Assembly (NCBI GenBank): GCA_009692745.1
Contig: SHYO01000015.1
Location: 1-40,179 of the forward strand
DNA length: 40,179 nt
Direction of reading: 5' to 3'
From: Chloroflexota bacterium
GTDB taxonomy: Bacteria > Chloroflexota > Anaerolineae > Epilineales > SHYO01
Under the pieces are notes generated by a model. The model saw only the letters and a program-made list of their open reading frames with translations. It made no database searches and was not told where the DNA came from. The translations under genes and the position numbers were made by a program. Shown one piece after another: positions 1,903 to 30,737 of the stretch (positions are counted from its first letter, which is position 1; each line of letters begins with the position of its first letter).

Positions 1903-1907
1903 CAATG

Positions 1908-3446
1908 ATGTTGAATCTGTCGACGGTGTTAGAGAACAGTGCCAAAGAGTACCCCGGTAACAAGGCGGTGATTTTCAACGATATCCACCTGAACTATGCC
2001 CAGGTCAACGGCGCCGCCAACCAGTTCGCCAATGTCCTCCGCGAGATGGGGGTGCAGCCCGGCGAAAAAGTCGCCCTCATGATCCCCAATATCCCGTATT
2101 TCCCGATCTGCTATTACGGCATCCTGAAAACTGGGGCAGTTGTGGTGCCAATGAATGTGCTCTTCAAGGGACCAGAAGTTGAATACCACCTGGAAGATTC
2201 AGAATCTGTGATGTTGGTGGTGTGGGAAGGTTTCGTCGAAGAGGCGCTCAAAGGCTTCCAGGTGGCCGAAACCTGCCACCGCATCATGGTCATCCAGGCC
2301 CCCGGCAGCCAGGCGGCCTACCCGGAGGAGGTGCATATCTACCAAAAGCTGATGACCCAATCCAAGCCGGTGACGGAGACCCATCCCACGATGCCCGACG
2401 ACACGGCTGTGATCCTCTACACCTCAGGGACCACCGGCCGGCCGAAGGGCGCCGAGCTGACCCACTTTAATATGTTTTCTAACGCCGTTTACGCCGCGCG
2501 GGATCTGCTCGGGTTGCAACCTGGGGATATTGCCCTGGCGGTATTACCCCTCTTTCACTCTTTCGGCCAAACGTGTGTCATGAACGCCTGCTTCGGCATT
2601 GGCGCCGGTATCACCCTGCTACCGCGCTTTGAGCCTGACAAGGCCCTGGCGATTCTGGAACGGGATGGGGTCAATTATTTCGCCGGGGTACCCACAATGT
2701 ACTGGTACCTGTTGAACTATCCCGAGGCGCACAAGTTTAACCTGGATAAGATCGCCAGCAACCTGCGCATCTGCGCTTCCGGCGGATCTGCTATGCCGGT
2801 GGAAACCATGCGCGCCTTCGAAGAGAAGTTTAAAGTACAAATTCTCGAGGGATACGGTCTATCGGAAACCTCCCCGGTAGCCTCCTTCAACGTCAGGTCC
2901 CGGCCGCGCAAGCCCGGTTCCATCGGTGTGCCTATCTGGGGCGTTGAAATGAAGATCGTGGACGATAATGACCACGATCTGCCCCAGGGCGAGTCCGGGG
3001 AAATCGTGATCCGCGGCCATAACGTCATGAAAGGGTACTACCGGCGCCAGGAAGCCACCGCTGAAACGATTAAGAATGGCTGGTTCCATTCTGGCGATAT
3101 CGGCTATATGGACGAAGATAGCTATTTCTTTATCGTAGATCGTAAAAAGGATATGATTATCCGCGGCGGGTTCAACATCTATCCGCGGGAGGTCGAGGAT
3201 GTGCTGATGGGTCACCCGGCCGTCTCGCTGGCGGCGGTGTTGGGCGTGCCCCACGAGGGTCTAGGGGAGGAAGTTAAAGCCTTTGTCGTGCTGAAAGCGG
3301 GGACACAGGCTACGGCCGAAGAATTGATCGCGTATAGCAAGGAGCGATTGGCGGCTTACAAGTATCCGCGTACCATCGAATTCCGCGACCAGTTGCCGCT
3401 CAACGCCACCGGTAAGATATTGAAGCGCGAGCTGCGCATGATATAA
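1908..3446 (+). CDS. Acyl-CoA ligase (AMP-binding, long-chain fatty acid-CoA ligase type)
   Basis: A 512-residue adenylate-forming enzyme of the ANL superfamily, the usual length for long-chain acyl-CoA synthetases. It would activate a carboxylic acid with ATP to an acyl-adenylate and transfer it to CoA. Visible motifs: the P-loop YTSGTTGRPKG at about 171-181, the adenine/Glu motif GYGLSETSP near 315, the core motif GWFHSGDIGY with the downstream hinge DRKKDMIIRGG, and the C-terminal catalytic lysine in NATGKILKREL (K503). No signal peptide, so cytoplasmic. An ATG three bases upstream (1905) is the alternative start. The next gene starts 20 bases after its stop, so the two are probably co-transcribed. 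Chain length and substrate cannot be read from sequence. Confidence 0.93.
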   Translation: MLNLSTVLENSAKEYPGNKAVIFNDIHLNYAQVNGAANQFANVLREMGVQPGEKVALMIPNIPYFPICYYGILKTGAVVVPMNVLFKGPEVEYHLEDSESVMLVVWEGFVEEALKGFQVAETCHRIMVIQAPGSQAAYPEEVHIYQKLMTQSKPVTETHPTMPDDTAVILYTSGTTGRPKGAELTHFNMFSNAVYAARDLLGLQPGDIALAVLPLFHSFGQTCVMNACFGIGAGITLLPRFEPDKALAILERDGVNYFAGVPTMYWYLLNYPEAHKFNLDKIASNLRICASGGSAMPVETMRAFEEKFKVQILEGYGLSETSPVASFNVRSRPRKPGSIGVPIWGVEMKIVDDNDHDLPQGESGEIVIRGHNVMKGYYRRQEATAETIKNGWFHSGDIGYMDEDSYFFIVDRKKDMIIRGGFNIYPREVEDVLMGHPAVSLAAVLGVPHEGLGEEVKAFVVLKAGTQATAEELIAYSKERLAAYKYPRTIEFRDQLPLNATGKILKRELRMI

Positions 3447-3466: not shown

Positions 3467-5074
3467 ATGGGGAATGAGGCGCTGGTTTTTGTAAACGGTA
3501 AAATTTACACTGTGGATGCCCACCAGCCCTGGGCTGGCGTCCTGGCGATGCGCCAGGGTACCATTGTCTATGTCGGGGATGATGTGGCCGCCGCACGGGA
3601 AGCGGCCGGAGTAGGCGCCGAGGTCATCGATTTGCGCGGCACCCTGGGGCTGCCGGGCTTCACCGATAGCCATATCCACCTGATCAATACGGCCCTGACC
3701 CTGGACCAGGTGAGCCTGGATGGCGTTCGCGGGGTGGAGCAGGCGCTGGAGCGCATAGCAGAGCGCGCCCGGCAGGCCCCCGCCGGTCAATGGCTCTTGG
3801 GCTGGGGGTGGGACCATAACGTCTGGGGCCGGTACCCCAACGCCGCCGAGCTCGACCACGTGGCACCCCATTGCCCGGTCTCCCTGACCCGCAAAGACGG
3901 GCACCTCTTATGGGTCAATTCCCTGGCGCTCCACCTGGCGCAGATCACCGACGAAACGCCAGACCCGCCAGGCGGGCATATTCAGCGCGATGCCAACGGC
4001 CATACTACCGGTATCTTGTTGGAGCGGGCGCGGGAGTTGGTCTTAAAGCAGATCCCGGAGCCGGATGCCGGGGTGCGCGAGGCGACCCTGAAACGCGCCT
4101 TTCCCCGCGCCCATGCCCTGGGATTGACCGGCGTACACGAGATGGGCTACCTGGGAGGTGCTCAGGCTTTGGCCGATTACCAGCGGCTATGGCAGCGGGG
4201 CGAATTGGGATTGCGGGTGCTATCCTCCATTCCGCGCCACAGCCTGGACGCGGCCTGCGCTGTGGGTCTGGCCACTGGATTCGGCGACGATTGGCTGCGC
4301 ATCGGCGCGGTCAAGGTCTTTATGGATGGCACGCTAGGCTCCCAAACGGCAGACATGCTGGCCGACTTTGAAAAGCAACCCGGCAACCGGGGCATTATTA
4401 TCACCGACGAAGAGGAGATGCGCCAGATCACCTGCCAGGCCGGGCAGGCTGGCATCGCTGTAGCCGTCCATGCCATCGGCGATGCTGCCAACCGCAAAGT
4501 GCTCAACGCTATCGAAGCCTACCAGGCAGGGGGCAGTTCCCGTCCCCTGCTGCACCGCATTGAACATGCCCAGTTACTGGATCCCGACGACCTGCCTCGC
4601 TTCGGCCGGCTGGGGATTGTGGCTTCGGTACAACCGATTCACGCCACCTCCGATATGCTCATCGCAGAGAGATATTGGGGCGCCCGCAGCAGTTGCGCCT
4701 ACGCCTTTCGCAGCCTGAAGGAAACCGGCGCCCAACTGGCCTTCGGCTCGGACAGTCCGGTTGAGACCTGGGATGTGCTGCAAGGGATCTACGCCGCCGT
4801 GACACGCCGCCGGGCTGACGGTACCCCGGCGGGAGGCTGGCACCCCGAGCAGAGGTTAACGTTGGCCGAAGCCATTCATGGCTATACGATGGGCGCTGCC
4901 ACTGTAGCCAGGGAATCGCAAAGCAAGGGCAGCTTAGCCGTGGGCAAAGTCGCCGATATGGTGGTGCTAGACCGGGACTTATTCAGCCTGCCGCCAGAGG
5001 AGATACTACAGGCGCGGGTGCGGCTGACGGTGCTGGACGGGGCTATCGTCTATGGTGGCTCCCAGGCCACCTGA
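3467..5074 (+). CDS. Amidohydrolase family 3 (YtcJ-like metal-dependent hydrolase)
   Basis: A 535-residue member of the amidohydrolase superfamily, YtcJ/AepA-like subgroup. Features seen: N-terminal beta domain (NGKIYTVD), then the metal-binding GFTDSHIHL (H69, H71), the subgroup hallmark KVFMDGTLGSQTA, AVHAIGDAANRKVL and RIEHAQLL carrying further metal-ligand histidines, FGSDSPVETWDVL with the catalytic Asp, and the C-terminal KGSLAVGKVADMVVLD typical of the return of the beta domain. Such enzymes hydrolyse amides, formamides or related bonds; the substrate is unknown. No signal peptide. It lies 20 bases after the acyl-CoA ligase, which suggests an operon, and no other gene of a pathway is visible next to it. 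Confidence 0.92.
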   Translation: MGNEALVFVNGKIYTVDAHQPWAGVLAMRQGTIVYVGDDVAAAREAAGVGAEVIDLRGTLGLPGFTDSHIHLINTALTLDQVSLDGVRGVEQALERIAERARQAPAGQWLLGWGWDHNVWGRYPNAAELDHVAPHCPVSLTRKDGHLLWVNSLALHLAQITDETPDPPGGHIQRDANGHTTGILLERARELVLKQIPEPDAGVREATLKRAFPRAHALGLTGVHEMGYLGGAQALADYQRLWQRGELGLRVLSSIPRHSLDAACAVGLATGFGDDWLRIGAVKVFMDGTLGSQTADMLADFEKQPGNRGIIITDEEEMRQITCQAGQAGIAVAVHAIGDAANRKVLNAIEAYQAGGSSRPLLHRIEHAQLLDPDDLPRFGRLGIVASVQPIHATSDMLIAERYWGARSSCAYAFRSLKETGAQLAFGSDSPVETWDVLQGIYAAVTRRRADGTPAGGWHPEQRLTLAEAIHGYTMGAATVARESQSKGSLAVGKVADMVVLDRDLFSLPPEEILQARVRLTVLDGAIVYGGSQAT

Positions 5075-5442
5075 GGAGGTCCCCCTCGGGGATAGCTGAT
5101 CTGGGGGGGAGGCTTTTTGTGAATACACGTTGACAATTCGTCCTACGTATGATATCATTTCTTCAGTATAATCTCGACCAATGCCGTCCGAATCTTCGCG
5201 CCCATTAACCAAACTTCCTCTGAATGCGCGAATTTTCCGTGCTATGTCGTTTATAGCAATAACCGGCCAGCTTCTTGGACATTTTGATAGCCGGCCAGGT
5301 CGATGAAACGTTAATCATCTGCCCCAATAACGTGGCTCTGCAAGGTTTGTAGCAATCCAGGTGGGGAAACTCTCCCTGGCCTCGATGTTTATATAGATAA
5401 GATCGATGTAATGCCGAATACGCTAATAGGAGTGTATAGATA
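5075..5442 (+). other. Intergenic region, leader of the radical SAM gene
   Basis: 368 bases between the amidohydrolase stop and the radical SAM start. A short hairpin (TCCCC, three bases, GGGGA at 5080-5092) and a later CTTTTTG give only weak support for a terminator. A strong promoter lies at 5130-5158. It leaves a leader of about 275 bases that contains a small GCTAT/ATAGC hairpin, a repeated CCGGCCAG and an imperfect stem at 5357-5379. No riboswitch class is recognisable. TAGGAG at 5427-5432 serves the ATG at 5443. Confidence 0.5.
5130..5158 (+). promoter_or_regulatory. Strong sigma70-like promoter
   Basis: Consensus TTGACA at 5130-5135, exact 17-base spacer, TATCAT at 5153-5158 (five of six). 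It is the best promoter match I found in the window and drives the radical SAM/MBOAT/SGNH cassette. An isolated TATAAT at 5167-5172 is a second possible -10. Confidence 0.65.
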
Positions 5443-6915
5443 ATGACTTTGACTCAGTTATCCTTTGAGAAGAATATTGCTAAGAACCAGCAGGAGTTTA
5501 CTGAAGGCAAACTCATCCTTGAATCCCGCCCCACTTTTGCGTGGCTGGCATTCACTGGGCGCTGCAACCTAAATTGCGCCCATTGTGCCCGCCGGCTGCG
5601 CAGCTTTCGCGCTCTACCGGAAACCCCGGATCTGACCCCTGAGCTCTTTGGTAAGCTCAAGACACAACTTCTTCCCTGGCTGACTCGCTACCAGTTAGGG
5701 GGCAATAACCTGGGCGAGCAACTGTATGCCCCTAACTTTGACGAATACTTTGACGATATGCAGCAATATCCCGGCCGGCCTGTGATCCAGACCAGCGGCA
5801 TGTTGCTCAATACAGAGCGTATCGAGGCCCTGGCGGCCTCAGGGGCGCAAATCAACCTATCGCTGGAGGGGGCGACACCCGGCACATATAACAGTGTACG
5901 GGGCCGGAATCTGGATGAGTTGATCGAATTTGCCCGCTATCTGGATGTTGAACGGAAGCGGTTGGATTCAAAGGCCACGATTAAGCTGACCTTTACTTCC
6001 TTTTATGACAACATTCGGGAATTGCCGGACCTGGTAACCATATGCAAGGATACCGGCGTAGATATGTTGGTGGTAACCCACCTGCTGCCCCTACACGAGG
6101 GCCAGCGCTACCAATCCCTGGTTTACCACCAGAGCATGGCCAACGAGATGTACGACAAATCCGAGCGTCTGGCTGCCGAGTTGGGGGTTAAGATTGCCAC
6201 ACCCCACCGGTTTAAGATCAAGCCGCTGCATAAATCCCCCGAACCCATGGAAGTAGGGCTATTCAATCCGAAAACGATCCCGGTCGGAAAAGAGCGCGGA
6301 GCTGCGAACGGGAATGGGTTGAAAGCCAGCGTGCCAGTGGCTGCTGGGGTCATGGCCAACAGCAATGAAGCGCCTGCCAACGACAACGGGATATCGGCTA
6401 ACGGCAACGGGGCGACTGCCAACGGCAATGGAAATAAACAGGTTGGAAATGGCCACGCAAAATCGAACCAGATCAAGATTATCGGGCCGGGTCGATCAAC
6501 CAGTAAATCTATGCCCATCTGTACCCATCCCTGGACCTCTGTTTCTATTGACGAGATGGGGGACGTACATCCATGCTGCGCCAGTGGTATGGTGATGGGT
6601 AATCTTAATGAGAATACCCTCGAAGAAATCTGGAACAATGGCCGCTACCAAAAGATGCGGGCGACGGTCAATACCCCTCATCCGGCCTTTACCGACTGCC
6701 GGTATTGTGTGCTACGCGGTGTGGACATGGAGAACGACTTTGGCGGGGATCTGCTCTGTGGAGAGCCCAAGGTTTTGCTGGCGCATATTGATGTAGCCAA
6801 CGCGGGACTGGTCTTTGCCGTGATGAAGCGCGTGCAAAAGGCACTTTTGGCCCATCCAGTCGGAAAGCGCTTCTATCCTCTGGCACGGCGCATCCATCAT
6901 CGGATCTTTAATTAG
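5443..6915 (+). CDS. Radical SAM protein with SPASM domain
   Basis: A 490-residue radical S-adenosylmethionine enzyme. The [4Fe-4S]/SAM motif C41-NLN-C45-AH-C48 lies in an N-terminal TIM-barrel segment, followed by QLGGNNLGEQL and INLSLEGATPGTYNSVRG, typical of the PqqE/MoaA-like group. The C-terminal SPASM part has C360, C378-C379 and C419-RY-C422 with NLNENTLEEIWNNGRY between them, enough to bind auxiliary clusters. Between core and SPASM sits a low-complexity Asn/Gly/Ala insert (about 286-341) with repeated NGNG units, an unusual flexible linker. SPASM enzymes usually modify peptides or small molecules; I see no precursor peptide gene nearby. A strong promoter lies upstream, and a long hairpin separates it from the MBOAT gene. 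Substrate unknown. Confidence 0.9.
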   Translation: MTLTQLSFEKNIAKNQQEFTEGKLILESRPTFAWLAFTGRCNLNCAHCARRLRSFRALPETPDLTPELFGKLKTQLLPWLTRYQLGGNNLGEQLYAPNFDEYFDDMQQYPGRPVIQTSGMLLNTERIEALAASGAQINLSLEGATPGTYNSVRGRNLDELIEFARYLDVERKRLDSKATIKLTFTSFYDNIRELPDLVTICKDTGVDMLVVTHLLPLHEGQRYQSLVYHQSMANEMYDKSERLAAELGVKIATPHRFKIKPLHKSPEPMEVGLFNPKTIPVGKERGAANGNGLKASVPVAAGVMANSNEAPANDNGISANGNGATANGNGNKQVGNGHAKSNQIKIIGPGRSTSKSMPICTHPWTSVSIDEMGDVHPCCASGMVMGNLNENTLEEIWNNGRYQKMRATVNTPHPAFTDCRYCVLRGVDMENDFGGDLLCGEPKVLLAHIDVANAGLVFAVMKRVQKALLAHPVGKRFYPLARRIHHRIFN

Positions 6916-6958
6916 AATTTTCCAGATGGGGTATCAACATCCTTCTGACAGTTTATTC

Positions 6959-6994
6959 GTCCTGGATTTCCGGGGTCTCCTGGAAATCCAGGAC
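6959..6994 (+). terminator. Long stem-loop between radical SAM and MBOAT genes
   Basis: Perfect 13-bp inverted repeat (arms GTCCTGGATTTCC at 6959-6971 and its complement at 6982-6994), extended inward by three pairs to a GTCT tetraloop. The stem is very stable, but the tail that follows (ATTTCT) is only mildly T-rich. It could be a partial terminator or an mRNA-processing/stability hairpin that sets a lower level of the downstream genes. Confidence 0.55.
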
Positions 6995-7022
6995 ATTTCT
7001 ATGCTAGAAGCAGGCTGAAGCA

Positions 7023-8462
7023 TTGATCTTTAATTCGTTTTCATTTTTAATCTTCTTTCCGATTGTCACAGTTCTATACTTCGTTTTGCCCCATCGCTAT
7101 CGGTGGATTTTACTCCTGACCGCCAGTTGTATTTTCTATATGGCCTTCGTGCCCGCCTATATCCTGATTCTCTTTGTGTTGATTGGTATAGATTATGTGG
7201 CGGGTATCATTATTGAGGAATCTGAGGGCAGAAAACGGAAGCTCTACCTGATCTTAAGTTTGGTGTCGAATGTCGGGATGTTGTCCTTCTTTAAGTATTT
7301 TAATTTCGTCAACGAAAACCTGGCGGCTTTGTACCATACCTTATCCCTTTCCTACCCCGTCCACGATTTGGGTATCCTCCTACCCATCGGCCTATCTTTT
7401 CACACCTTCCAGTCTATGAGTTATACTATCGAAGTCTTCCGCGGCCGGCAGAAAGCAGAACGGCACTTGGGGATTTACGCGCTGTATGTGATGTTCTACC
7501 CCCAGCTCGTGGCAGGCCCCATTGAGCGCCCGGGGCACATGCTACACCAGTTTCGCGAAAAACATTCCTTTGACTATGACCGGGTCACTGACGGTCTGAA
7601 ACTGATGCTTTGGGGATTCTTCAAAAAACTGGTTATCGCAGACCGGTTGGCGATTCTGACCAATCAAGTCTTTAATCACCCCACAGATTATACCGGCTGG
7701 CCTTTGATTATCGCGCTCTATGCCTTCGCCATCCAGGCGTTTTGCGATTTCTCCGGGTACTCCGATATCGCGATTGGAGCAGCCCAGGTGATGGGATTCA
7801 AGCTGATGGTGAATTTCCGGCAGCCATTCCTTTCCCAATCCATAGGGGAGTTCTGGTCACGCTGGCATATCTCCTTAACAAGTTGGTTTCGCGATTACAT
7901 CTACATCCCTCTGGGAGGAAACCGCGTCCCTAAACTCCGGTGGGTGTTCAACATTATGATTGTCTTTATCATCAGCGGATTATGGCATGGGGCCGCCTGG
8001 ACTTATATCCTCTTTGGCGCCATCCACGGCGCTCTGATCGTAGCCAACGATATGTTCCAGAACGTCCAGAAGCGTTTGGGGAAGCCGTTCCATTGGACCG
8101 TGCCTCCAACCCTGAGCAAATTAGCCGGCATTTTCTTCACCTTCAACATGTTTGTTTATAGCTTGATCTTTTTCAGGTCAAACACCATATCAGATGCTTT
8201 CTATTACTTAACCCACTTATTTACCGACCTGCGGCAGAAGCCAAATCTCAATTTAGGGCTGACTTCTATCGACATGGTTATCTTGCTTTTGGCTATCCTA
8301 TTTCTGGAGACTGTCGAGATATTACAGCACCGCACTTCTGCCAGACAGTTTGTTGCCCAGAGGCGTCCCTGGATTCGCTGGGGGCTGTATTTTGCTGGGG
8401 TTCTCAGTTTAATTTTGTTCGGAGAGTATGCCACACAGCAGTTCATCTATTTCCAATTCTAA
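7023..8462 (+). CDS. MBOAT family membrane O-acyltransferase (AlgI/DltB-like)
   Basis: A 479-residue polytopic membrane protein of the membrane-bound O-acyltransferase family. The start is TTG at 7023: the sequence from there, MIFNSFSFLIFFP, is the standard N-terminus of AlgI-type proteins, although the ribosome binding site is weak. Family motifs seen: PQLVAGPIERP, the DFSGYSDIAIG segment, FWSRWHISLTSWFRDYIYIPLGGNR, and LWHGAAWTYILFGAIHG with the invariant catalytic histidine. Such enzymes move acyl groups across the membrane, usually to a surface polysaccharide, with an SGNH-type partner. The partner is encoded 48 bases downstream. It probably acetylates an extracellular glycan; the acceptor is not known. 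Confidence 0.93.
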   Translation: MIFNSFSFLIFFPIVTVLYFVLPHRYRWILLLTASCIFYMAFVPAYILILFVLIGIDYVAGIIIEESEGRKRKLYLILSLVSNVGMLSFFKYFNFVNENLAALYHTLSLSYPVHDLGILLPIGLSFHTFQSMSYTIEVFRGRQKAERHLGIYALYVMFYPQLVAGPIERPGHMLHQFREKHSFDYDRVTDGLKLMLWGFFKKLVIADRLAILTNQVFNHPTDYTGWPLIIALYAFAIQAFCDFSGYSDIAIGAAQVMGFKLMVNFRQPFLSQSIGEFWSRWHISLTSWFRDYIYIPLGGNRVPKLRWVFNIMIVFIISGLWHGAAWTYILFGAIHGALIVANDMFQNVQKRLGKPFHWTVPPTLSKLAGIFFTFNMFVYSLIFFRSNTISDAFYYLTHLFTDLRQKPNLNLGLTSIDMVILLLAILFLETVEILQHRTSARQFVAQRRPWIRWGLYFAGVLSLILFGEYATQQFIYFQF

Positions 8463-8510
8463 GATACGGGCGGTCGCACCCCCTGGCGAAAGGATTTACT
8501 GAGACTTATC

Positions 8511-9560
8511 ATGGCTGAGAATATTAATATAGTTGAAACACCTGCGTCTGCGGTCATCGATCAACCTGGTGTAGTGGAGAGAGAGCAGGTGACTGAGCGC
8601 GCAAAGATTGATAGTGGTGTGATGAAGTTCTTTACGAACGTGCTGCTACTAGGGGTGACTACGGCCATCATTCTGCTAGGGATCTGGTTTGCCCCCAACA
8701 CGCAACTGACCTACGTAGCAGCGTTGATTGACAAACATCGGCTGCTGGATACAACCCCCTCCCCGCGCATGATCTTTATCGGCGGCTCCAACCTGGCCTT
8801 TGGCTTAGATTCGGGTTTGGTGCAGCAAACCTTCGGCTATCATGTGATTAACATGGGACTGGAACATGACCTTGGGCTACGTTATATGCTGGGCGAAGTC
8901 AAATCCAGCCTCAGGCCCGGAGATGTAGCGGTGATCAGCCCGGAATACGGCCATTTTGTAGGCAACCTAAACGGAGATTTTTCGCTGCTGGAATTGCTCT
9001 ATTATTACCCGCAAGCGCTTAAGTATTTTGATTCCCCGTCGCAATACCGGGCTCTGTTGTCACCTGTCCCCTTTCAAAGACGGGCTAAGGGGCTCTTCGT
9101 GGCCTATGTGCTGCGCCAGGATTACCAGGCGGAAGAGATTTACAAAATTTACAACCGCGATTCCTTTAATCAATATGGCGATTTAATCGGCCACATCGGC
9201 TGGCCATCGAAAATCTTTCCCACAGATCAACTCTTCCCCAAAAACAGCGCCCAAATCGACCCTGAGATTTTCCAGGTGCTACGAGACTTCAAAAAATTGG
9301 CGGACCAGCGCGGGGTAAAAGTTTTTATTTCCTTTCCGTGTGTAGCAGATACGGTAGTTACGAAATACAAAAGCGCTTTGCGGGATATGTATTATCGCAC
9401 GAAAGCAGAGTCGAACATTACGGTATTGGATAGTCCCGACCTTTGTGCCCTGCCCTTAGACAATTACTATGATAACGTCTATCACTTAAATGGCAAAGGG
9501 CGGGAAAACCGCACCGAGTATTTGATAAAAACCCTCTCTCCGGTGCTGCAGCCAAAATAA
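8511..9560 (+). CDS. Membrane-anchored SGNH/AlgJ-like acyltransferase partner of MBOAT
   Basis: A 349-residue protein with a 40-residue cytoplasmic tail, one transmembrane helix (about 41-60) and an extracellular domain. The domain opens with MIFIGGSNLAFGLDS, the block I GxS of SGNH hydrolases (Ser93), and ends with DNVYHLNGKGRENRT, which supplies the late His (H325) as in AlgJ, AlgX or PatB-type proteins. Between them SPEYGHF may form another active-site block. Such proteins take the acyl group from the MBOAT and place it on the glycan. It lies directly behind the MBOAT gene and is the last plus-strand gene before the convergent EPS cluster. The assignment rests on motifs and neighbourhood, since overall similarity in this group is low. 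Confidence 0.8.
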   Translation: MAENINIVETPASAVIDQPGVVEREQVTERAKIDSGVMKFFTNVLLLGVTTAIILLGIWFAPNTQLTYVAALIDKHRLLDTTPSPRMIFIGGSNLAFGLDSGLVQQTFGYHVINMGLEHDLGLRYMLGEVKSSLRPGDVAVISPEYGHFVGNLNGDFSLLELLYYYPQALKYFDSPSQYRALLSPVPFQRRAKGLFVAYVLRQDYQAEEIYKIYNRDSFNQYGDLIGHIGWPSKIFPTDQLFPKNSAQIDPEIFQVLRDFKKLADQRGVKVFISFPCVADTVVTKYKSALRDMYYRTKAESNITVLDSPDLCALPLDNYYDNVYHLNGKGRENRTEYLIKTLSPVLQPK

Positions 9561-9569
9561 AGCACGACA

Positions 9570-9592
9570 GTGCGGTTACAAACCGCATCTAC
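9570..9592. repeat. 23-base palindromic repeat (GTGCGGTT...CTAC family), copy 1
   Basis: Arm GTGCGGTT at 9570-9577, loop ACA, near-complementary arm AACCGCAT, then CTAC. It matches 21 of 23 positions of the element at 24542-24564. Placed 9 bases after the SGNH gene stop, between two convergent genes, where the hairpin could act as a transcription end in both directions. Confidence 0.6.
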
Positions 9593-9654
9593 GAAAGAGG
9601 GCTTGTAGGGCGATTTGCCGAAAATTGGCGCCTTAAAATGTAAAAACCATGACC

Positions 9655-12600
9655 CTAAGGGTTGCGCGTCATGCTCCAGATATCCAGGTCATTGCCGCAA
9701 CCTGCCAGGGAGATGGAGTTAGCATTAAGCTCTCCACGTACCAGGTAGATGGTGCGCTCGTCAGCCGTCATACTGCCGCCCACAATCAGCGAGCGATTGG
9801 GATTCGCACCTGGCAATGGAAATTTCAGCGGTAGTGGCACAGTCCAATTCCCCGAATCCATGAAGAAACTATAGTAAAGCGTAGGCAAGTACCTGTGGGA
9901 AATCCGCGCTGACGAAGCGAATAGTAACGTGCGGTTGTCCTTCGCCAGGTGGGGTTGGTACGAGACCCCCAGAGGCGTCAAGGCATTATCGTTGACCGGG
10001 TACGGCAGCGGTAGAGGAGTCGACCAGCAGGTATCACAATGGGGATCATTGCGTTCACTCGCCATTAACACCCAACCGGTGTCATCCTGCATAGCAGAGC
10101 GGCCGAAGAAGAGCTTTTTACCATCGGGCGAGATGTCTACCGTATCTTCCTCCAGCGCGGTATTGATCTGTGACCCCAGGTTAACCGGCGCGCCCCACTC
10201 TCCATTGGGCTGCCGGTGCAATACGTAAATGTCCCTATTGGCCGGCACATTAATATTGTGCGCTCGGGTGATGTACATATCGTTCCCATCCGCCGTCATG
10301 ATGATAGAGGTCTCGGGCCTGTCAGAGTTTACCGGAGCTCCCAGCCGTATCGGTACACTCCAGGCGCCGGTGATGGTACGATCTACGCGGAAAATATCGA
10401 AATCCGGGAATACCGGAGCATTGGGTACTGCAGGTGGGCCCTGGCCGGGGCAGGCAGTGTAGATGTAATACATGGAACTTCCATCCGGCCTCAGGTAAGG
10501 CACATCGGCCCAACCTCCCTGGTTCAAATGCATCCCATTAGCCAGAACGCGGGTAGGCGTGCTCCAGGTGGCATCGGTAAAGGTTGAGCAGGTCTTGCCC
10601 CACTGGGACGCGACATTGAGAATATCGCGCACATCAATCACACCATCGGGCGCCAGATCATAGATATCCTCGAAGCCGGCGCCATTTCGGGTGGCACCCC
10701 AATGTTGCAGCGTCTCAATAATATCCTGTATATCCATCTTACAGTCACAATTGACATCGCCGGGCATACAGGCAGATGGCGCCCGCACCAGGCCAAAGTT
10801 CATGCCTGCCAAAGTGATCCCTGGCAGCACTGTCAGGATGGTAGCCTGGTCCCATTGGCTGGTATTGCCCAGGAAGAGATTGTAATACCGGCCATCGGTG
10901 CTATTTGCCTTAAGCTTATATTGGCCGGGGGGCAAACCCACAAGGCTATAACTGCCATCTGCTGCCGCCGAAACGGAAGCAATGGGTGGGCCTACCGCCA
11001 GGATCTCGGCAGTGACAATCACCCGTGAAAGGCTCCCTGAGCCCGTCAGAGGAACCAGCCGGCCGGTAATTGCCCCGCCTTGCTGGAGCGCAAAATTAAT
11101 CCCGCCCACCTCCGCGCCTAATGTCACAGTTACCGGCTGCGCCTGGTCCGGTGTTACGGAATGGGGCCAATACTGTAAGATATAATTGCGGACATCCGGC
11201 AAAACTGCCACCTGATACATGCCTTGCGGCACGCCATAGGCATGGTAGACCCCATTTTCATCGGTCTGGCCGGCGCCCTGCTGCTGTCCAGAAGCCGGAT
11301 CTAATACGGCGACGACCACGTTAGAGATCGGTTGCCCGCTAACCGCATCCAGCACCAGCCCACTGACAGCTCCGCCGCGGCTCAAGCTGAAATTGATGTG
11401 CTGGATCTCCACGTATGATGGAATCTGTATGATGCTGGCACTGCCTCCCTCAGGTGTACCATCGAAAAATTGGGGGATATAATTGCGCCCGTCCGGCGGA
11501 GCAAAGGCACGATATCTGCCCGGTGCTACACCTAAAATCCGGTAATTCCCGTTGTTATCGGTTTGGGCGCCAATACGCCGGCCACCGTCCACCGGCAACA
11601 AATCGACCACCTGATTCGGTACCGGTGCGCCGCTTTCCTGCAGCACCACGCGCCCGGAAAGGGCACCTCCAGCACTCAATGGCACATTGATATTTTCCAG
11701 GCTGCCTCCGGCTGTCACCGTCAAAATAGCCGGGTCGCTCCCATTGCCATAATATCGGCCCTGGTACATCCGCTGATCACTGGGCACATAGAGCCGGTAT
11801 TGGCCGGGAGATACGCCACTCAATTGGAAGCGGCCATCTGCGCCGGTGCGCCCCTCGATAAGCACTAACCCGGCGAGAGGCTGCAAGATGATCCCAAGTT
11901 GCGCCACAGGCGCCCCTGTCACCCCATCGGTAATCCGGCCACTGATGCTACCACCCTGGAACAGGGAGAAGTTGACCGGCGAGATTACCTGACCGGCGCT
12001 CAGCGTCAGAATTGTGGCTTGCGTACGGGAAATGGTATTCTGGTAATAGGTGCCTACATAGCCTCGACTATCAGGTTGGCTATAGACCAGGTACTGCCCG
12101 GCGGGCAATCCATGATAGACGTACCGGCCGACCGCGTCGCTCAAGATACCGAAAGTCCTGGCATGTTGATCATCGATGAAGTACAGAGGAATGGCAGCGA
12201 TGGCGCTAGCGGTCTGCTGGTCCGTGACGCGCCCACCAATAGCTCCCCCCTGCTTCAGGCTAAAATCTATCCCGTCGAATTTTGCCCCTGAGCTGATATC
12301 AATAGGTACACTGCGGCTCTCTTCAATCACGCCGGGATAGTAGAGCGGCACATAATTGCGGCTATCGCTGGGCACATGCAAATCATACGTCCCGGGTGGC
12401 AGACCGTTGACCCGGTAGTGACCCTGGCTATCGGTGCGCGGTGCATACTGAGTAACCTCAGCGCCAGCTAACCCAGTGCCGGGCTGGCGTGGCACCACCG
12501 AAACGGTCATATCTGGCAGAGGTTGTGCGGTGTCGAAATCCTGCAAGGTACCGGAAATGCTGCCACCCAGCGTCAAGTTAAAGTCAACCCCCGGTACGGT

Positions 12601-14520
12601 CGGCCCGGCTGGGAGATGGACTTGGGCAGCGCTGGCAGGATCCTCCACCTGATTATAATACTGGGTGACATAATTCTCACCATCGGTGGGAATGGCAACC
12701 CGGTAGTTACCCGGCGCCACCCCGTGTAGCTGATATTGGCCGTTCGTTGCGGAAATGGCACTAAAGGCCAGCCGGTTATCATTCCAATCCTGGAAATAGA
12801 CGGTGCGCCCGGCCAGGGGTTGGCCCGTGCTATTGGACTTTACCACACCACGCACACCGGCGCCCTGGATGAGGGATAACTGCAACCCCGTCAGCACCTG
12901 CCCGACAGTTATCGTGATAGGCGGCGCCGCAGAAAGCTGCGCCACATTCCCATTGTAGCGATCATAATAATTGCGCTCATCGCTGCGCACCCAGACACGA
13001 TAGCGTCCAGCAGAGATATTCGCCAATTGGAATACCCCATTCTGATTTGTGACGGACAAACTAGCTTGCTGGCTCGTGTCATAATCCAGGGCCACGACCA
13101 ACGTACCACTTACTGGCTGGCCAGTGGATTGGGCCACGACCAGGCCGACAATCCCGCCGCCACGCGTCATCTGGAAATCCAGGTTGGGTTGTTCTCGGCC
13201 CGCCTGCACCAGCAGCGTCACCGCTTGATCGGCAGTCAGCGAGTTATTGTAGAACTGGGGCAAGTATGCGCCGTCTGGGCTAAAGGCAACGAGTTTATAA
13301 CTCCCCACGGCTACCCCGTTTATCCTGTAATGACCATTAGTATCCGTGGTCGCCAGAATAGATAGCCCACCGCTTACCGGCTGCGCCTGTACCACATGGT
13401 TCGCCAGCGGTTGGCCCATTTCCTTGTCGATGACTCGCCCAGAGAGGGCGCCTCCCTTGGGCAAGGCAAAATTCAGCGGCGAGATAAGACTCCCGGCTGT
13501 TACCGTTACTGGAGTGGTGTTGGTAGGATAAATCGTATTGGGGTAGAAAGTAGTCACATAATTCCGGCTGTCGCCCGCTACAAATAGCAGGTAGACGGAT
13601 GTCGGCAGGCCCAAAATGCGATAATTTCCCTGGGCATCTGTCGTACCGGCGAAGGGGAACCTGGTCACCCAATCGAGGGCGCCAACCACCATGTTAGCCA
13701 CCGGCGCGCCGGTGCCGGCATCTACTACTCGTCCAGCTATGGTACCTCCCGGCTCCAGGGAGAAATCTATGCCGTTGAGGTGTGCTCCTCCCGTAATAGT
13801 CAGCGGGGTGGCAGCAGCAGAATTGCTGGTCAGGTGGTAATATTGAGCGATATATCCGCGCGCGTCCGTTGGCGCCAGGAGTTTATACCCGCCAGGAGCC
13901 AATCCGCGCAACACGAAGCGGCCCGTGCTGTTACTCTGTGCAAATTGGACGAACTTACCGGTGCCAAATTCATAGGCAAAGATAACCACATCGGAAATCA
14001 GGGCACTATTATCAAGACGCGTCACCAGACCCTGCACGGCGCCACCGAGCGGCAGGTGAAAATCGATATTAGCGCTATGAGCACCGGCAGCAACGGTCAC
14101 GGCCTGGGCATCTACCAAAGCCAGCTTATCGGGATAATAAAGGGCGGCATAGTCGAGGGTATTGGAATAGGGCCGGGCTTGCAAGAGGTAAGCTGCCGGT
14201 GGCAGATTAATGACCGTGTATCGTCCCTGGTCATCGGTGAGCGCCAGTCCCGCTACCTCGTTCGTATCATATTTGATGGCCATGATCAACATGCCAGACA
14301 AGGGAGTGCCTGTCTCTTGTACCGTTACCCGCCCGCTGATATCCCCCGGCAGTCCACCCTGCTCAAGCCCGCTGGCTGAGATGACCGGTATACCTGATTC
14401 CCCAAAGGTGAAAGCTGGCAATTGGGCCACAAAGATCACCAGGAAACCGGCGCAAAGGCCCAGGAATATGGCTACCGGCAACCGGCGGCCCTTGAATTTA
14501 TGCGAGCTCTTCTCACGCAT
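9655..14520 (-). CDS. Giant secreted protein: 12 carboxypeptidase-regulatory-like repeats, dockerin, PD40-like domain
   Basis: The frame can be extended to 14667, but the ATG at 14520 gives a proper signal or anchor sequence (basic MREKSSHKFKGRR, then hydrophobic LPVAIFLGLCAGFLVIFVA) and 1,621 residues. Residues 59-1246 are 12 tandem units of about 99 residues. Each starts GG-(A/S)-(I/L/V)-SGRV-x-D-x2-(T)G-x-P and contains a DxxGxYx(I/V)xG(L/V)xPGxYxL core, as in CarboxypepD_reg/Cna-B-like beta-sandwiches, plus a recurrent xxYYP-type motif. A dockerin type I module follows (1254-1310; GDVNCDCKMDIQDI and DLAPDGVIDVRDIL are the two calcium loops). The last ~310 residues carry PDG/SPDGK-type repeats (DISPDGKKLFFGRS, SMTADERTIYLVRG) like TolB/PD40 propeller blades. 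Last gene of the EPS cluster. Probably an extracellular adhesive or scaffold protein; no enzyme motif is visible. Confidence 0.88.
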   Translation of the reverse strand: MREKSSHKFKGRRLPVAIFLGLCAGFLVIFVAQLPAFTFGESGIPVISASGLEQGGLPGDISGRVTVQETGTPLSGMLIMAIKYDTNEVAGLALTDDQGRYTVINLPPAAYLLQARPYSNTLDYAALYYPDKLALVDAQAVTVAAGAHSANIDFHLPLGGAVQGLVTRLDNSALISDVVIFAYEFGTGKFVQFAQSNSTGRFVLRGLAPGGYKLLAPTDARGYIAQYYHLTSNSAAATPLTITGGAHLNGIDFSLEPGGTIAGRVVDAGTGAPVANMVVGALDWVTRFPFAGTTDAQGNYRILGLPTSVYLLFVAGDSRNYVTTFYPNTIYPTNTTPVTVTAGSLISPLNFALPKGGALSGRVIDKEMGQPLANHVVQAQPVSGGLSILATTDTNGHYRINGVAVGSYKLVAFSPDGAYLPQFYNNSLTADQAVTLLVQAGREQPNLDFQMTRGGGIVGLVVAQSTGQPVSGTLVVALDYDTSQQASLSVTNQNGVFQLANISAGRYRVWVRSDERNYYDRYNGNVAQLSAAPPITITVGQVLTGLQLSLIQGAGVRGVVKSNSTGQPLAGRTVYFQDWNDNRLAFSAISATNGQYQLHGVAPGNYRVAIPTDGENYVTQYYNQVEDPASAAQVHLPAGPTVPGVDFNLTLGGSISGTLQDFDTAQPLPDMTVSVVPRQPGTGLAGAEVTQYAPRTDSQGHYRVNGLPPGTYDLHVPSDSRNYVPLYYPGVIEESRSVPIDISSGAKFDGIDFSLKQGGAIGGRVTDQQTASAIAAIPLYFIDDQHARTFGILSDAVGRYVYHGLPAGQYLVYSQPDSRGYVGTYYQNTISRTQATILTLSAGQVISPVNFSLFQGGSISGRITDGVTGAPVAQLGIILQPLAGLVLIEGRTGADGRFQLSGVSPGQYRLYVPSDQRMYQGRYYGNGSDPAILTVTAGGSLENINVPLSAGGALSGRVVLQESGAPVPNQVVDLLPVDGGRRIGAQTDNNGNYRILGVAPGRYRAFAPPDGRNYIPQFFDGTPEGGSASIIQIPSYVEIQHINFSLSRGGAVSGLVLDAVSGQPISNVVVAVLDPASGQQQGAGQTDENGVYHAYGVPQGMYQVAVLPDVRNYILQYWPHSVTPDQAQPVTVTLGAEVGGINFALQQGGAITGRLVPLTGSGSLSRVIVTAEILAVGPPIASVSAAADGSYSLVGLPPGQYKLKANSTDGRYYNLFLGNTSQWDQATILTVLPGITLAGMNFGLVRAPSACMPGDVNCDCKMDIQDIIETLQHWGATRNGAGFEDIYDLAPDGVIDVRDILNVASQWGKTCSTFTDATWSTPTRVLANGMHLNQGGWADVPYLRPDGSSMYYIYTACPGQGPPAVPNAPVFPDFDIFRVDRTITGAWSVPIRLGAPVNSDRPETSIIMTADGNDMYITRAHNINVPANRDIYVLHRQPNGEWGAPVNLGSQINTALEEDTVDISPDGKKLFFGRSAMQDDTGWVLMASERNDPHCDTCWSTPLPLPYPVNDNALTPLGVSYQPHLAKDNRTLLFASSARISHRYLPTLYYSFFMDSGNWTVPLPLKFPLPGANPNRSLIVGGSMTADERTIYLVRGELNANSISLAGCGNDLDIWSMTRNP
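10783..14346 (-). repeat. Coding tandem repeat, 12 units of about 297 bp
   Basis: The 12 repeat units of the giant secreted protein occupy this stretch (about 3,564 bases). The units are alike at protein level but clearly diverged in DNA, so they are old duplications under selection for fold rather than a recent expansion. Unit boundaries recur at the GG-x-x-x-G-x-V motif. Confidence 0.75.
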
Positions 14521-14632
14521 AAACACCAGGCCCGCAAAGGATCTGATACCGGGATAGCACAGCGCTGAAATTCGCCGTTCCGGTGGAGCATGCAAAAAAT
14601 GGGAAAGCACCTTCCAACATACGTTCTCCGCC

Positions 14633-15571
14633 CTAACTGTGTTGAGACCTGATCCGGTTATCGGCAATCACCTCGTCAATATAGCCGTCCAGTGTCCGGC
14701 TCGGCCGGTATCCCAGCAAAGCGCGCGCCCTGGAGATATCGGCTACGGAGTAGCGCAACTCACCCGCTTGGGCGGGGGCATACTCCGGCTGCAGGTCTGG
14801 CCGCAGCCGCTGGCAGAGCAGCGATGCCACTTGATTCACCGTGGTACCAACACCGGTACCTATATTGATAGTCGCACCGGCCACCGGTGCGGATACGGCA
14901 CTCACAGTACCGTCTGCTACATCTGCTACATGCACAAAATCGCGGGTTTGCTGGCCGTCGCCGAAGATCACCGGCGGTTCGCCGGCCAATAGGCGACGGA
15001 TGAATATCGTAATCACCCCCACGTATGGGGTATAGGTCTGCCCCGGGCCGAAGGTGTTGAAATAGCGCAAGACCACAACTTCCAGATTCTTTAACCGCCC
15101 CATCAACTGGCAATACTGCTCTGAAGCCAGCTTTGAAATGCCATAAGGGGAAAGGGGCGCCTGGAGAAAGGACTCGTCGACCGGCGTAGGGTTTGGTGCA
15201 TCGGCATAGACAGCCATAGAGGATATCAAGACCAGGCGCCGTACGTGCTGATCCAGGCAGGCGCGCAAGATTTGTAAAGTACCCATCAGGTTTACATCGG
15301 CATCGGCCACCATCTGTTCTACGGAGGCGCGGATACTGACGCGCGCGGCCAGATGGCACACCACATCCGCCCCTTTCACCACCTGGTCTACAGTGGCAGC
15401 GTCGCGGATATCGCCCACTACCAATTCGGCCCCTGCCGGGACCCTTTGGCGGGTGCCCATAGAGAGGTCATCCAAGACCGTCACCGGGCGCCCGACTGCG
15501 AGCAAACGCCTGGCAACATTAGCCCCGATAAAACCTGCGCCTCCGGTGACGACCACCCGTTCCGGCCTCAT
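14633..15571 (-). CDS. NAD-dependent sugar epimerase/dehydratase (GalE-like extended SDR)
   Basis: A 312-residue extended short-chain dehydrogenase. Seen: the NAD-binding GGAGFIG (10-16), the D(L/I)RD turn, VCHLAARVS, the catalytic S-x24-Y-x3-K set (ISSMAVYAD with Ser117/118; Y143-GIS-K147), RYFNTFGPGQ and FGDGQQTRDFVHVADVADG, as in UDP-glucose/UDP-GlcNAc 4-epimerases. It would interconvert nucleotide sugars for the neighbouring polysaccharide assembly. Its ATG overlaps the stop of the upstream nucleotidyltransferase (TAATG), with GGGGAG as ribosome binding site. Exact substrate is not determined; a 4,6-dehydratase is less likely because the catalytic DE pair of that group is absent. Confidence 0.88.
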   Translation of the reverse strand: MRPERVVVTGGAGFIGANVARRLLAVGRPVTVLDDLSMGTRQRVPAGAELVVGDIRDAATVDQVVKGADVVCHLAARVSIRASVEQMVADADVNLMGTLQILRACLDQHVRRLVLISSMAVYADAPNPTPVDESFLQAPLSPYGISKLASEQYCQLMGRLKNLEVVVLRYFNTFGPGQTYTPYVGVITIFIRRLLAGEPPVIFGDGQQTRDFVHVADVADGTVSAVSAPVAGATINIGTGVGTTVNQVASLLCQRLRPDLQPEYAPAQAGELRYSVADISRARALLGYRPSRTLDGYIDEVIADNRIRSQHS

Positions 15572-16527
15572 TACACTCCCCCCAGGGACGTTAGAATCCG
15601 TTCTGGCGTTACGATGGATTCCACAATGTTCTCACGGGTCTGCACCTGGGCGCCCGCCCAGATTAAGCTACGCTGGATGGAAATCGGGTAGAGCACCCGC
15701 ACCCCGGCCCCGATGACCGAGCTCTCCACGGTGCAGCCCGGCGCCAGATCTGCCTGAGGACTAATCACCTTTGTCTGGCCGGAAGTTACCAGCATCCGCA
15801 AATTGCATTCCAGCAGATCGGCGGGAAAGGTCATATTCATATCCCACTCTACCACATTGGCGACTTGCACCCGGCAGCCGTCGTCTATATAGACCTGGAT
15901 GGCATCGGTAATCTCATATTCATTCCGTAACATGGAGCGCGGGGTACGCCTGAGGGCATCGAAGAAGGCGGGTTTAAAGAGATAAACACCGCAGCCCTTC
16001 AAGTCATTGGGGGGATGGCGCGGCTTTTCGATTACCCGCACCACCTTACCAGTATCATCCAGCAAGACGGCGAAATTGCGCATGATATATTCGCGCATCG
16101 GCTCATGTTTCACAATCAGGACGCCATCGACCTCAGGCAGCGCCAGCATCTCCACAGCCGTCTGTAACCGGTTGAACTTGAGAAAGATGTCGCCCAAGAA
16201 GATCAACATCGGTTGGTCAACATGGCTTTCCAGGGTCAACAGTGCGTGGGCAATACCTTGGGGATGGCTCTGTTCAACATAGGTGATCTGCACACCCAGC
16301 GCGCGCCCATCTCCCAAGGCGCTCCGGATTTTATGTCCCAGGTGACCCACAACGATATAGACGCGGCGGATACCCACACTGGCCATGTCCAGGATTTGCC
16401 ATTCCATGATGGATTTGTCCAACACCGGGAGCAGCGGCTTAGGCATTTCAACGCTGAGAGGTGCGATGCGTTTCCCCTGACCGGCGGCCAATATCACCCC
16501 TACCAGGGGTTGCGTTGTTACCACCAA
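15571..16527 (-). CDS. Sugar-1-phosphate nucleotidyltransferase
   Basis: A 318-residue nucleotidyltransferase of the RmlA/GalU/ManC fold. The N-terminal signature VILAAGQGKRIAPLSVEMPKP (glycine-rich loop 13-20, Lys30) binds the NTP, and LIFLGDIFL carries the metal-binding Asp. MLRNEYEITDAIQ is the family's product-binding region. A short C-terminal hexapeptide-like stretch follows (VESSVIGAGVRVLYPISIQRSLIWAGAQV in part). It makes an NDP-sugar for the EPS pathway; base and sugar cannot be fixed. The start is TTG at 16527 (or GTG at 16524), behind a perfect AGGAGG nine bases upstream. Its stop overlaps the next gene's start, so the two are translationally coupled. Confidence 0.88.
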   Translation of the reverse strand: MVVTTQPLVGVILAAGQGKRIAPLSVEMPKPLLPVLDKSIMEWQILDMASVGIRRVYIVVGHLGHKIRSALGDGRALGVQITYVEQSHPQGIAHALLTLESHVDQPMLIFLGDIFLKFNRLQTAVEMLALPEVDGVLIVKHEPMREYIMRNFAVLLDDTGKVVRVIEKPRHPPNDLKGCGVYLFKPAFFDALRRTPRSMLRNEYEITDAIQVYIDDGCRVQVANVVEWDMNMTFPADLLECNLRMLVTSGQTKVISPQADLAPGCTVESSVIGAGVRVLYPISIQRSLIWAGAQVQTRENIVESIVTPERILTSLGGV

Positions 16528-16543
16528 AGTTAGTATCCTCCTA

Positions 16544-19061
<2,518 letters not shown>

Positions 19062-19062
<1 letters not shown>

Positions 19063-20285
19063 TAGCCTTTACTCCGGTTAAGAGTACTCAATTCCAGAGA
19101 ATCCTCGCCGATCTGGGCTGGGCTGCCGGCTATGGCAGGGCTTGCAGTTTTGATCGTTTTTCCATCGCGCAACGCGCTCTCATATCCCTTGCGAAAGTAA
19201 TACGTCATGGCCTTCCAATAGAGCAGCCGTGCCAGTCTAGACCAGTGGGGTCTCTGCTCCAACCATTCGATAGCAGGCCGCAGCACGCGCGGCACCGTGG
19301 CGTCGTTGAGTAAAAGGCACCGGGCCACGTCGCGCGCCTGCCCGCGCAGCCACTCCGGCGATGACTTCGAGACCATAGGATTGGGCAGCGGATACCAGCG
19401 GTAGATCCGTGGGTCCGGCACACGTTGCATCAAGAAAGGCAGGCCCCGGCCCAGGAGATATTGGCGCTGGCACTCAGCGGCAAAAGTGGTGGGGTGATGG
19501 TGGTAACCCAAGGCGTCGGGTAGATAAAACAACTCCAGCCCGCCGCGCTGCAACCGGTATCCGATTTCGATATCCTCGTGAGCGCCAAAAGGCACTTCAC
19601 TAAAGGCCCCCATGTCCAAAAGGAAGGACTTTTTGAGGGAGAGATTCATGGTCCAGCAAAAAGTATAATCCAGGCGCACATACTCCAGACCCGGTGATTT
19701 GTGCTGAGAGTACTCAGCCGAGTGCTGAGAGGACTCAGCTTTGCGGGCTATTTCCTGAGCCATCCAGTAAGGGAATGGCGCCCACCAGGCCATAAAAGGC
19801 GTGGTTTTGATAGCCGGATCCTGCTCCACATGCCCCAGGCCACCGATTTGAGGTTGAGGATATTTGCGATGCAGCGTAGCATGGGCAGTGATAAATTCCG
19901 GTGTCACAAAGACATCATCATTCAAGAAAACCACCACCTGTCCGGTGGCATGGCGCAAGCCCAAATTGCGATTGGAGCCTGGGCCGAAGGCATCGGTAGG
20001 CAGCAGTTTCTCCCCGGCAGAGGCATGCTGCCGTTTTTGGGTGGAAAGATCCGTGCCGGAGCCCTCCGGCCCACCCTGGCGAAAGGCTTTAAGCTGGAAA
20101 GGCGCCTGCCCGATGCGCGCCTGGACCGCCGCCGTGGTGCCATCGTTGCTGCCGCCGTCCACCACAATCACCTCGAATTCCTGGGCGGCAGCCGTCTGGC
20201 GAGACAGGTGATCCAAAACTCGCATCACATTATGTCGCCGGTTATAGGTAGCAATAATCACACTAATAAAAAGCTCTGCGGCCAT
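19062..20285 (-). CDS. Glycosyltransferase family 2 with repeat-derived insertions
   Basis: A 407-residue GT-A fold glycosyltransferase: SVIIATYNRRHNV, EVIVVDGGSNDGTT, the metal-binding FLNDDVF and HEDIEIGYRLQ, with no transmembrane helix. Two stretches look inserted. One (about 72-100, GPEGSGTDLSTQKRQH...) lies between the second strand and SNRNLG. The other, AESSQHS-AEYSQHK, is encoded by two 21-base copies of the palindromic repeat GCTGAGTACTCTCAGC (19701-19739). The C-terminus (LSTL) is encoded by another partial copy at 19081-19090. It presumably adds one sugar to the lipid-linked repeat unit; donor and acceptor unknown. Both insertions fall in probable surface loops, so the enzyme can still be active. 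Confidence 0.88.
19701..19739. repeat. Two in-frame copies of the GTGCTGAGAGTACTCAGC repeat inside a GT2 gene
   Basis: GTGCTGAGAGTACTCAGC at 19701-19718 and GTGCTGAGAGGACTCAGC at 19722-19739, offset by 21 bases so the reading frame is kept. Related units occur at 19081-19090, 20325-20410 and 29733-29748. Confidence 0.7.
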
Positions 20286-20324
20286 AAATCTTCGTCCTCA
20301 CTCCCAATGTCGCGTTCGATCCTT

Positions 20325-20410
20325 GCCGAGAGTACTCAGTTCTGAGTAACCTCACCAGCTATATACACAGTTCCGTGCTGAGAGTACTCACGGCTGAGGT
20401 TACTCAGCAG
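20325..20410. repeat. Cluster of four CTGAG-N-CTCAG palindromic units at the wzx/GT2 junction
   Basis: Units at 20325-20340 (GAGAGTACTCAG core), 20341-20355 (CTGAGTAACCTCA), 20375-20391 (GTGCTGAGAGTACTCAC) and 20392-20410 (GGCTGAGGTTACTCAGCAG). The last one contains the TAA stop of the flippase gene and encodes its final residues. The cluster fills the whole gap between wzx and the GT2 start and could fold into alternating hairpins in the mRNA. Confidence 0.7.
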
Positions 20411-21890: not shown

Positions 21891-22810
21891 GCTTTAGGGC
21901 TTTTAGATCCTTTGCCCCGGCGCTCCTGGTCGCCACGCTCCTCGTAGTAGCGGTAAAGCGCATATTCTTTGCTAGTTGCCTGCTCAAATCGATTCAGGAC
22001 TACCCCCACCACATTTCCCCCGGCACTCGCGAGGCGCTTAACCATCCGCCGGGCGTTGGCCTCACTAACTCGGCCCACTTGAATCACCAGCAAAATACCA
22101 TCGACCTGGGAAAACAGCACCTGGCTATCGGAAACCGCCTCAATTGGCGGCACATCGATCAAGACCCAATCGTAAGCCTGGGCCGCCATATTCAGCAGTT
22201 GCTTTAACGTGGGATTGCGTAACAACTGCAAAGGAGAGGCTCGCCGCTGTCCGGCCGGAATAAAATCCAGGCCCGGCAGAATGTTATGCAATATCACCTG
22301 GTGTACAGGCGCATTTTCCCACACCTGACCTGGATTATCGCTTTCAGCCCCTTTGGCACTCTTGCCGTCCGCCAACCGCCCCCCCAGGTAATCCGAGAGA
22401 CCTGCCCGGTTGGGCAGCCCTAAAGCGTCGTGCAGCGCGGGGCGGCGTAGGTCCGCATCTATCAACAGGACCCGATCTCCCACCTGGCAAGCCATCCTGG
22501 CAAAACCGGCCAGGGTGCTGGTTTTGCCTTCCTCCGGATAAGCACTCATGGCCATCAGGCTATACCCTTTGACGCCGGCACGGATATAGCTCAATTGGCT
22601 ATGGAGCGTCGCCAAGGATTCCTCTACTACGGCTCTCTCCCGGTCCAGCCGTTCCATCTCCTGCAGCTCCCGCCGGTCCTGGTAAGTGCGCCAAATGGGT
22701 ATATTCCGTAACATGGTATCTAATCCCGATCCAAGCCGCTGTGTCCAAGAGCGGACAGGTTGGGCTGAAACTTCACTCTCTGCTTGCATTAAAGTCTTCA
22801 CAGGTTCCAT
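21887..22810 (-). CDS. Bacterial tyrosine kinase (BY-kinase, CapB/CpsD-like)
   Basis: A 307-residue cytoplasmic P-loop protein: Walker A SAYPEEGKTST (89-99), Walker A' LLIDADLRRP (115-124), Walker B DWVLIDV (214-220) and a C-terminal tyrosine cluster (Y283, Y286, Y288, Y289), as expected for autophosphorylation. As in Gram-positive CpsC/CpsD systems the activator is a separate protein, the Wzz-like product encoded just upstream, and the two frames overlap by 13 bases. It would control polymer length and export by cycles of phosphorylation. No matching tyrosine phosphatase gene is seen in the window. The first ~75 residues are a longer than usual, charged N-terminal extension. Confidence 0.9.
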   Translation of the reverse strand: MEPVKTLMQAESEVSAQPVRSWTQRLGSGLDTMLRNIPIWRTYQDRRELQEMERLDRERAVVEESLATLHSQLSYIRAGVKGYSLMAMSAYPEEGKTSTLAGFARMACQVGDRVLLIDADLRRPALHDALGLPNRAGLSDYLGGRLADGKSAKGAESDNPGQVWENAPVHQVILHNILPGLDFIPAGQRRASPLQLLRNPTLKQLLNMAAQAYDWVLIDVPPIEAVSDSQVLFSQVDGILLVIQVGRVSEANARRMVKRLASAGGNVVGVVLNRFEQATSKEYALYRYYEERGDQERRGKGSKSPKA

Positions 22811-30736: not shown

Positions 30737-30737
30737 G

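Follow-up and report, generated by a model that had tools for sequence, protein, structure and literature searches.

The window, a whole contig of 40,179 nucleotides from a Chloroflexota genome (4.37 Mb in 223 contigs, 83% complete), is likely to encode an O-acyltransferase pair of the PatA/PatB type, with the exopolysaccharide of an adjoining Wzx/Wzy-type cluster as its most likely acceptor, and a radical SAM gene ahead of the pair that specifies a separate, probably non-participating enzyme. The initial annotation had placed the three open reading frames on the + strand, where all three are indeed present, and had suggested a possible new modification cassette; this suggestion was not supported. 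The features discussed are as follows.

5130-5158, + strand: sigma-70-like promoter-like site (consensus match alone)
5443-6915, + strand: putative twitch-type radical SAM enzyme, 490 aa (open reading frame, Pfam, motif)
6959-6994, + strand: hairpin between the radical SAM and MBOAT genes (folding)
7023-8462, + strand: MBOAT O-acyltransferase, 479 aa, TTG start (open reading frame, Pfam, motif)
8511-9560, + strand: SGNH acyltransferase partner, 349 aa (motif, conserved residues, structure model)
14633-31658, - strand: Wzx/Wzy-type polysaccharide cluster, adjoining on the downstream side and convergent

The polysaccharide cluster contains nucleotide-sugar epimerases, a Wzy_C protein, glycosyltransferases, a Wzx-type flippase, a Wzz-like protein with an ATPase and an initiating sugar transferase. 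Before it, and convergent with the SGNH gene, lies a reading frame (9655-14667) whose very long product contains ten stretches of CarboxypepD_reg repeats; as the TTG start listed for this frame runs into the next gene, the true start is probably further in. On the 5' side of the radical SAM gene are an amidohydrolase gene and an AMP-binding acyl-CoA ligase-like gene, the latter two genes away (1905-3446), which could be a source of an unusual acyl-CoA. With GC contents of 0.475 and 0.490, the MBOAT and SGNH genes lie below the radical SAM gene (0.540) and most other genes in the window, a weak hint of a separate origin.

The MBOAT and SGNH proteins and their pairing

The MBOAT protein matches PF03062 (E 4.1e-25, 89.2 bits against a cut-off of 27) and carries at its C-terminus the sequence FIYFQF, which has the form of the FXYXXF hexapeptide. 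In the window protein and the 71 MBOATs recovered in the genome scan described below, the hexapeptide falls within the final 18 residues (72/72), and Tyr476 and His322 are invariant (72/72). According to PMC12148441, the MBOAT protein PatA acetylates the tyrosine of its own C-terminal FXYXXF motif and requires a conserved His, and the acetyl group is passed onward by its SGNH partner.

The SGNH gene starts 48 bp 3' of the MBOAT gene. Its product had no Pfam match (a loose cut-off gave DUF459 alone, E 0.12), and the profile of its alignment had no match among PDB sequences at E<=0.1. The SGNH identity was instead assigned from a GGSN motif, conserved Ser and His residues, the AlphaFold model and structural matches to DltD, PatB and others. 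Ser93, within the GGSN motif, is kept in 81/81 aligned rows, and His325 in 78/81, the other three rows being gapped. The likely catalytic acid, Asp321, is less certain, as this position is Asp in just 62 of the 81 rows and Asn in 13. The model (42 sequences, pLDDT 89.3) consists of one long N-terminal helix, predicted to lie in the membrane, and an SGNH domain. Foldseek placed DltD at the top, with PatB and GDSL esterases below, and VIA-align gave Z values of 11 to 13 for many SGNH-type proteins, including 11.7 for DltD (6pfx; rmsd 4.0 over 224 residues). Thus, the MBOAT gene is followed by a gene for a predicted membrane-anchored SGNH protein with a catalytic Ser and His, as expected of a PatAB-type pair. 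The scanned viral contigs held no relative of the SGNH protein.

The conservation of this arrangement was examined with an alignment of four SGNH proteins (from the window, two from genome G148 and one from a Pseudomonas plasmid) and no MBOAT sequences, used as the query against 84,980 species, each represented by a single genome. The best 80 of 123 related stretches were kept, all of which were examined, with flanks of up to 10 kb per side, shorter at contig ends, so that some loci are short. An adjacent MBOAT gene on the same strand was found in 71 of these 80 SGNH loci, spread over many phyla, with the MBOAT first in 67 pairs and second in four (L077, L082, L087 and L090). Among the nine loci lacking an MBOAT, the SGNH gene lies less than 500 bases from the end of the available DNA in three (L051, L062 and L107); the remaining six (L045, L063, L069, L085, L086 and L120) have room for one, yet gave no match. 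In G148, an Anaerolineales-like member of the same class, two tandem MBOAT-SGNH pairs share one strand (L038:195-5236). Within the order, five of seven genomes have an MBOAT match, the window's own included, and among six same-order MBOAT regions (L134-L139) an SGNH gene is adjacent in one (L134, 7.3e-6).

The genes beside the pairs are mixed. In a sample of 50 upstream and 50 downstream neighbours, the most frequent Pfam families, the top 25 of 91 and 83 respectively, each occurred in at most 4 of 50. Gene calling here was crude (longest reading frames, ATG starts only), and the sample comprised 50 of 65 called upstream and 50 of 69 called downstream neighbours; the 34 left out were mostly shorter calls, plus an MBOAT itself or genes of a second pair. 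The variety of neighbours indicates that the MBOAT-SGNH pair is self-standing and turns up in many genomic contexts. It is an ordinary two-part O-acyltransferase of an already known type, and its description in the initial annotation as a known envelope-glycan acylation module agrees with PMC12148441.

Type and relatives of the radical SAM protein

The radical SAM core is clear, with CX3CX2C at C41/C45/C48 and a match to PF04055 (E 1.6e-9, 38.6 bits against a cut-off of 29.5). The SPASM family PF13186 also matches (E 6.1e-15), and the protein had been annotated as a radical SAM/SPASM enzyme. A full SPASM domain has CX2CX5CX3C and a final Cys for a second auxiliary cluster. The protein has four auxiliary cysteines in its sequence, C360-X17-C378 and C419-X2-C422, together with G373, and C439 is the sole Cys after C422. 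One four-cysteine auxiliary site with only C439 beyond it indicates a twitch architecture. The radical SAM assignment stands, and by the cysteine pattern twitch type is the better supported description than full SPASM. The four auxiliary cysteines are invariant in a 29-row alignment, whereas C360 drops off the invariant list in a 27-row alignment. Between the core and auxiliary domains is an N/G/A-rich low-complexity insert (residues ∼290-350), the linker being encoded by a 21-bp imperfect tandem repeat at 6355-6428.

The closest solved relative by sequence is BtrN (1e-10 with the single protein, 4.3e-29 with a profile), a twitch cyclitol dehydrogenase that oxidises a hydroxyl of a sugar-like cyclitol. 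BtrN and other twitch enzymes share with the window protein the CX3CX2C core and one four-cysteine auxiliary site; the window protein differs from BtrN in being ∼240 residues longer, with the low-complexity insert and C-terminal helices. By fold the order is different. In comparisons with the predicted model (mean pLDDT 66.5; core good, insert and C-terminus poor), SkfB (Z 23.4, rmsd 3.1, 281 residues), SuiB, DesII and BlsE all rank above BtrN (Z 18.0, rmsd 2.7, 218 residues, 22% identity). SkfB and SuiB are peptide maturases, and the substrates of DesII and BlsE are sugar nucleotides. Among the NCBIfam matches listed (25 of 33), the protein scores below every cut-off, the best being TIGR04311 with 93.1 bits against 400. 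Since BtrN is nearest by sequence, oxidation of a sugar or other small molecule may serve as a first guess for the reaction, clearly weaker than the other assignments made here.

The protein is isolated. Only the window's own copy was found in 298 genomes of the class at E<=1e-30 and in 400 genomes of the phylum at E<=1e-18, and a scan of genome contigs with the single protein, which detects close relatives only, gave no relative, nor did the viral contigs. At E<=1e-8, some radical SAM protein was present in 66 of 199 class genomes (own included), the best at 4.9e-19 with 33% identity over partial length; these are general relatives. A phage or defence role was considered and rejected, the weak PADLOC match to prokaryotic viperins (1.8e-6) being read as general radical SAM similarity. 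On a Methylobacterium plasmid, a radical SAM protein (L037:6470-7972) has an auxiliary domain 51% identical to that of the window protein over 63 residues, and its gene is next to one for a prolyl oligopeptidase and not to an acylation pair.

Association of the radical SAM gene with the pair

A promoter had been proposed ahead of the radical SAM gene, and a promoter-like site is present at 5130-5158, found by consensus match only: TTGACA-17-TATCAT, 11 of 12 consensus positions with a TG before the -10 element. The scan called 8 such sites against 5.5 ± 2.5 expected. The site lies ∼285 nt 5' of the start codon, leaving a leader of ∼280 nt whose fold is not unusual (z -0.97); a riboswitch or other known RNA was rejected, as Rfam gave no match at E<=1 over 4900-9700. 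The hairpin between the radical SAM and MBOAT genes was likewise found as annotated, with a strong 16-bp stem and a 4-nt loop, and the region 6916-7022 folds better than all 200 shuffles (z -4.78). Its tail, ATTTCTATGC, is a poor T-tail. The hairpin might act in termination, in attenuation or in mRNA stability; the idea that it is a dispersed repeat was discarded, as it occurs once in the genome. The two genes are on the same strand with a gap of 107 bp, in which no promoter-like site was called, so that transcription could well continue into the MBOAT gene. Together with the poor tail of the hairpin, this makes co-transcription of all three genes possible.

Whether the three genes belong together was addressed by searching the 80 SGNH loci with a profile built from 29 radical SAM sequences, that of the window among them, and with the window protein itself; single radical SAM neighbours were covered by this search and not by the Pfam neighbour counts. 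No radical SAM gene was found within the available flanks of any of the 71 MBOAT-SGNH pairs, in a search that could miss relatives too distant for the profile, and one was found in a single locus of the 80, L086, which has no MBOAT. Raising the threshold to E 10 added one further weak match (L068, 0.0076). None was found in the six same-order MBOAT regions, nor in the 16 kb read around the tandem pairs of G148. At L086, in a glycan-looking stretch ∼2.4 kb before an SGNH gene of the window family, a gene for a 280-aa radical SAM core overlaps through ATGA a gene for a 263-aa protein with a twitch-like cysteine domain (L086:3512-5142), which reflects either a radical SAM/twitch enzyme divided over two genes or a frameshift.

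The neighbourhood analysis thus gave no co-occurrence in 71 pairs or in six same-order regions, and the proposed three-gene cassette comes down to one instance of adjacency, with no support among relatives. Of the two observations that the initial annotation had named as refuting a cassette, absence of co-occurrence was therefore made, while for termination at the hairpin a strong stem stands against a poor T-tail. The accompanying statement that the radical SAM gene lies outside the classical acylation systems is borne out by PMC12148441, which does not name such a gene among their parts, and the literature searched held no report of a radical SAM enzyme combined with an MBOAT-SGNH pair. Most likely, the radical SAM gene, which has its own promoter-like site and a 3' hairpin, is a neighbour specific to this lineage, and its product probably plays no functional part in the acylation unit.

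The best surviving alternative is a true cassette confined to one lineage, in which the radical SAM enzyme would alter a sugar of the polysaccharide by oxidation, epimerisation or deoxygenation and the pair would then acylate it. The shared strand and the short gap with no promoter-like site called in it, the polysaccharide cluster next door, the similarity to a cyclitol dehydrogenase in sequence and to DesII and BlsE in fold, and the radical SAM gene near a related SGNH gene in L086 are all consistent with such a cassette. However, the lack of a radical SAM gene in the available flanks of all 71 pairs, the absence of an MBOAT from L086, where the radical SAM enzyme is moreover different and split, and the strong hairpin between the two genes argue against it, and we regard it as unlikely. 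Its most specific form, in which a co-transcribed, divergent twitch enzyme would make an unusual exopolysaccharide sugar that the MBOAT-SGNH pair of this lineage acylates, is improbable; if true, it would be a glycan modification route using radical chemistry.

We give still less credence to maturation of a peptide or protein, whether a RiPP or a modified surface protein, with the acyl pair acting on the product. The top fold matches, SkfB and SuiB, and several of the distant NCBIfam matches are peptide maturases, but the curated peptide-maturase cut-offs were missed by far among the matches listed and the leader holds no precursor-like reading frame. Candidate RiPP precursors 5' of the radical SAM gene were rejected: + strand frames of 42-44 codons (starts at 5153, 5172 and 5315) are non-coding by score (-0.01 to -0.22 bits per codon vs 0.20 to 0.38 for 21 window genes), as is an 82-codon frame on the minus strand of the leader.

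Proposed acylation mechanism and acceptor

We return to a PatA/PatB-type pair that probably acts apart from the radical SAM enzyme. This assignment is based on family membership, on conserved residues and a conserved motif, on the fold of the model and on the conserved pairing; the chemistry is taken by analogy from PatAB. By that analogy, the MBOAT protein would use His322 to move an acyl group, probably acetyl from an acyl-CoA, to the tyrosine of FIYFQF at the outer face of the membrane. Ser93 of the SGNH protein would receive the acyl group from this tyrosine, and the SGNH protein would pass it on to an exported glycan, acylating one of its hydroxyls. The most likely such glycan is the exopolysaccharide that belongs to the convergent Wzx/Wzy cluster. 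We infer both the acyl group and the acceptor; the cluster is the most likely source of the acceptor by proximity.

The resemblance to PatA/PatB, the peptidoglycan O-acetyltransferase described in PMC12148441, extends to separate MBOAT and SGNH genes, the MBOAT His and FXYXXF tyrosine, the SGNH Ser and His, and a membrane-anchored SGNH protein; the window pair differs in adjoining a polysaccharide cluster, and PatB is just a distant fold match. As proposed for the window pair, the AlgIJFX and WssHIFG systems, which O-acetylate alginate and cellulose, combine an MBOAT and an SGNH protein on an exopolysaccharide, a likeness set by their description in the same source (PMC12148441), whereas no alginate or cellulose synthase genes were recognised among the window proteins scanned. 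DltB/DltD, which D-alanylate teichoic acid, share the MBOAT family and an SGNH protein of similar fold; in the window, the shuttle motif is fused to the MBOAT. A D-alanylation (Dlt) system is a very remote prospect: DltB proteins are the closest solved relatives of the window MBOAT, the DltB model TIGR04091 is its sole NCBIfam match and DltD heads the Foldseek list of the SGNH model, but TIGR04091 scores 173.3 bits against a cut-off of 375, the hexapeptide is part of the MBOAT itself and not of a DltX microprotein, and no DltA-DltC arrangement lies beside the pair among reading frames of at least 80 aa.

The acylation half of the locus is thus widespread and self-contained, found as a pair in unrelated neighbourhoods, and one adjacency with a radical SAM gene is poor ground for claiming a new pathway. 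The divergent, lone twitch enzyme may merit attention in its own right.
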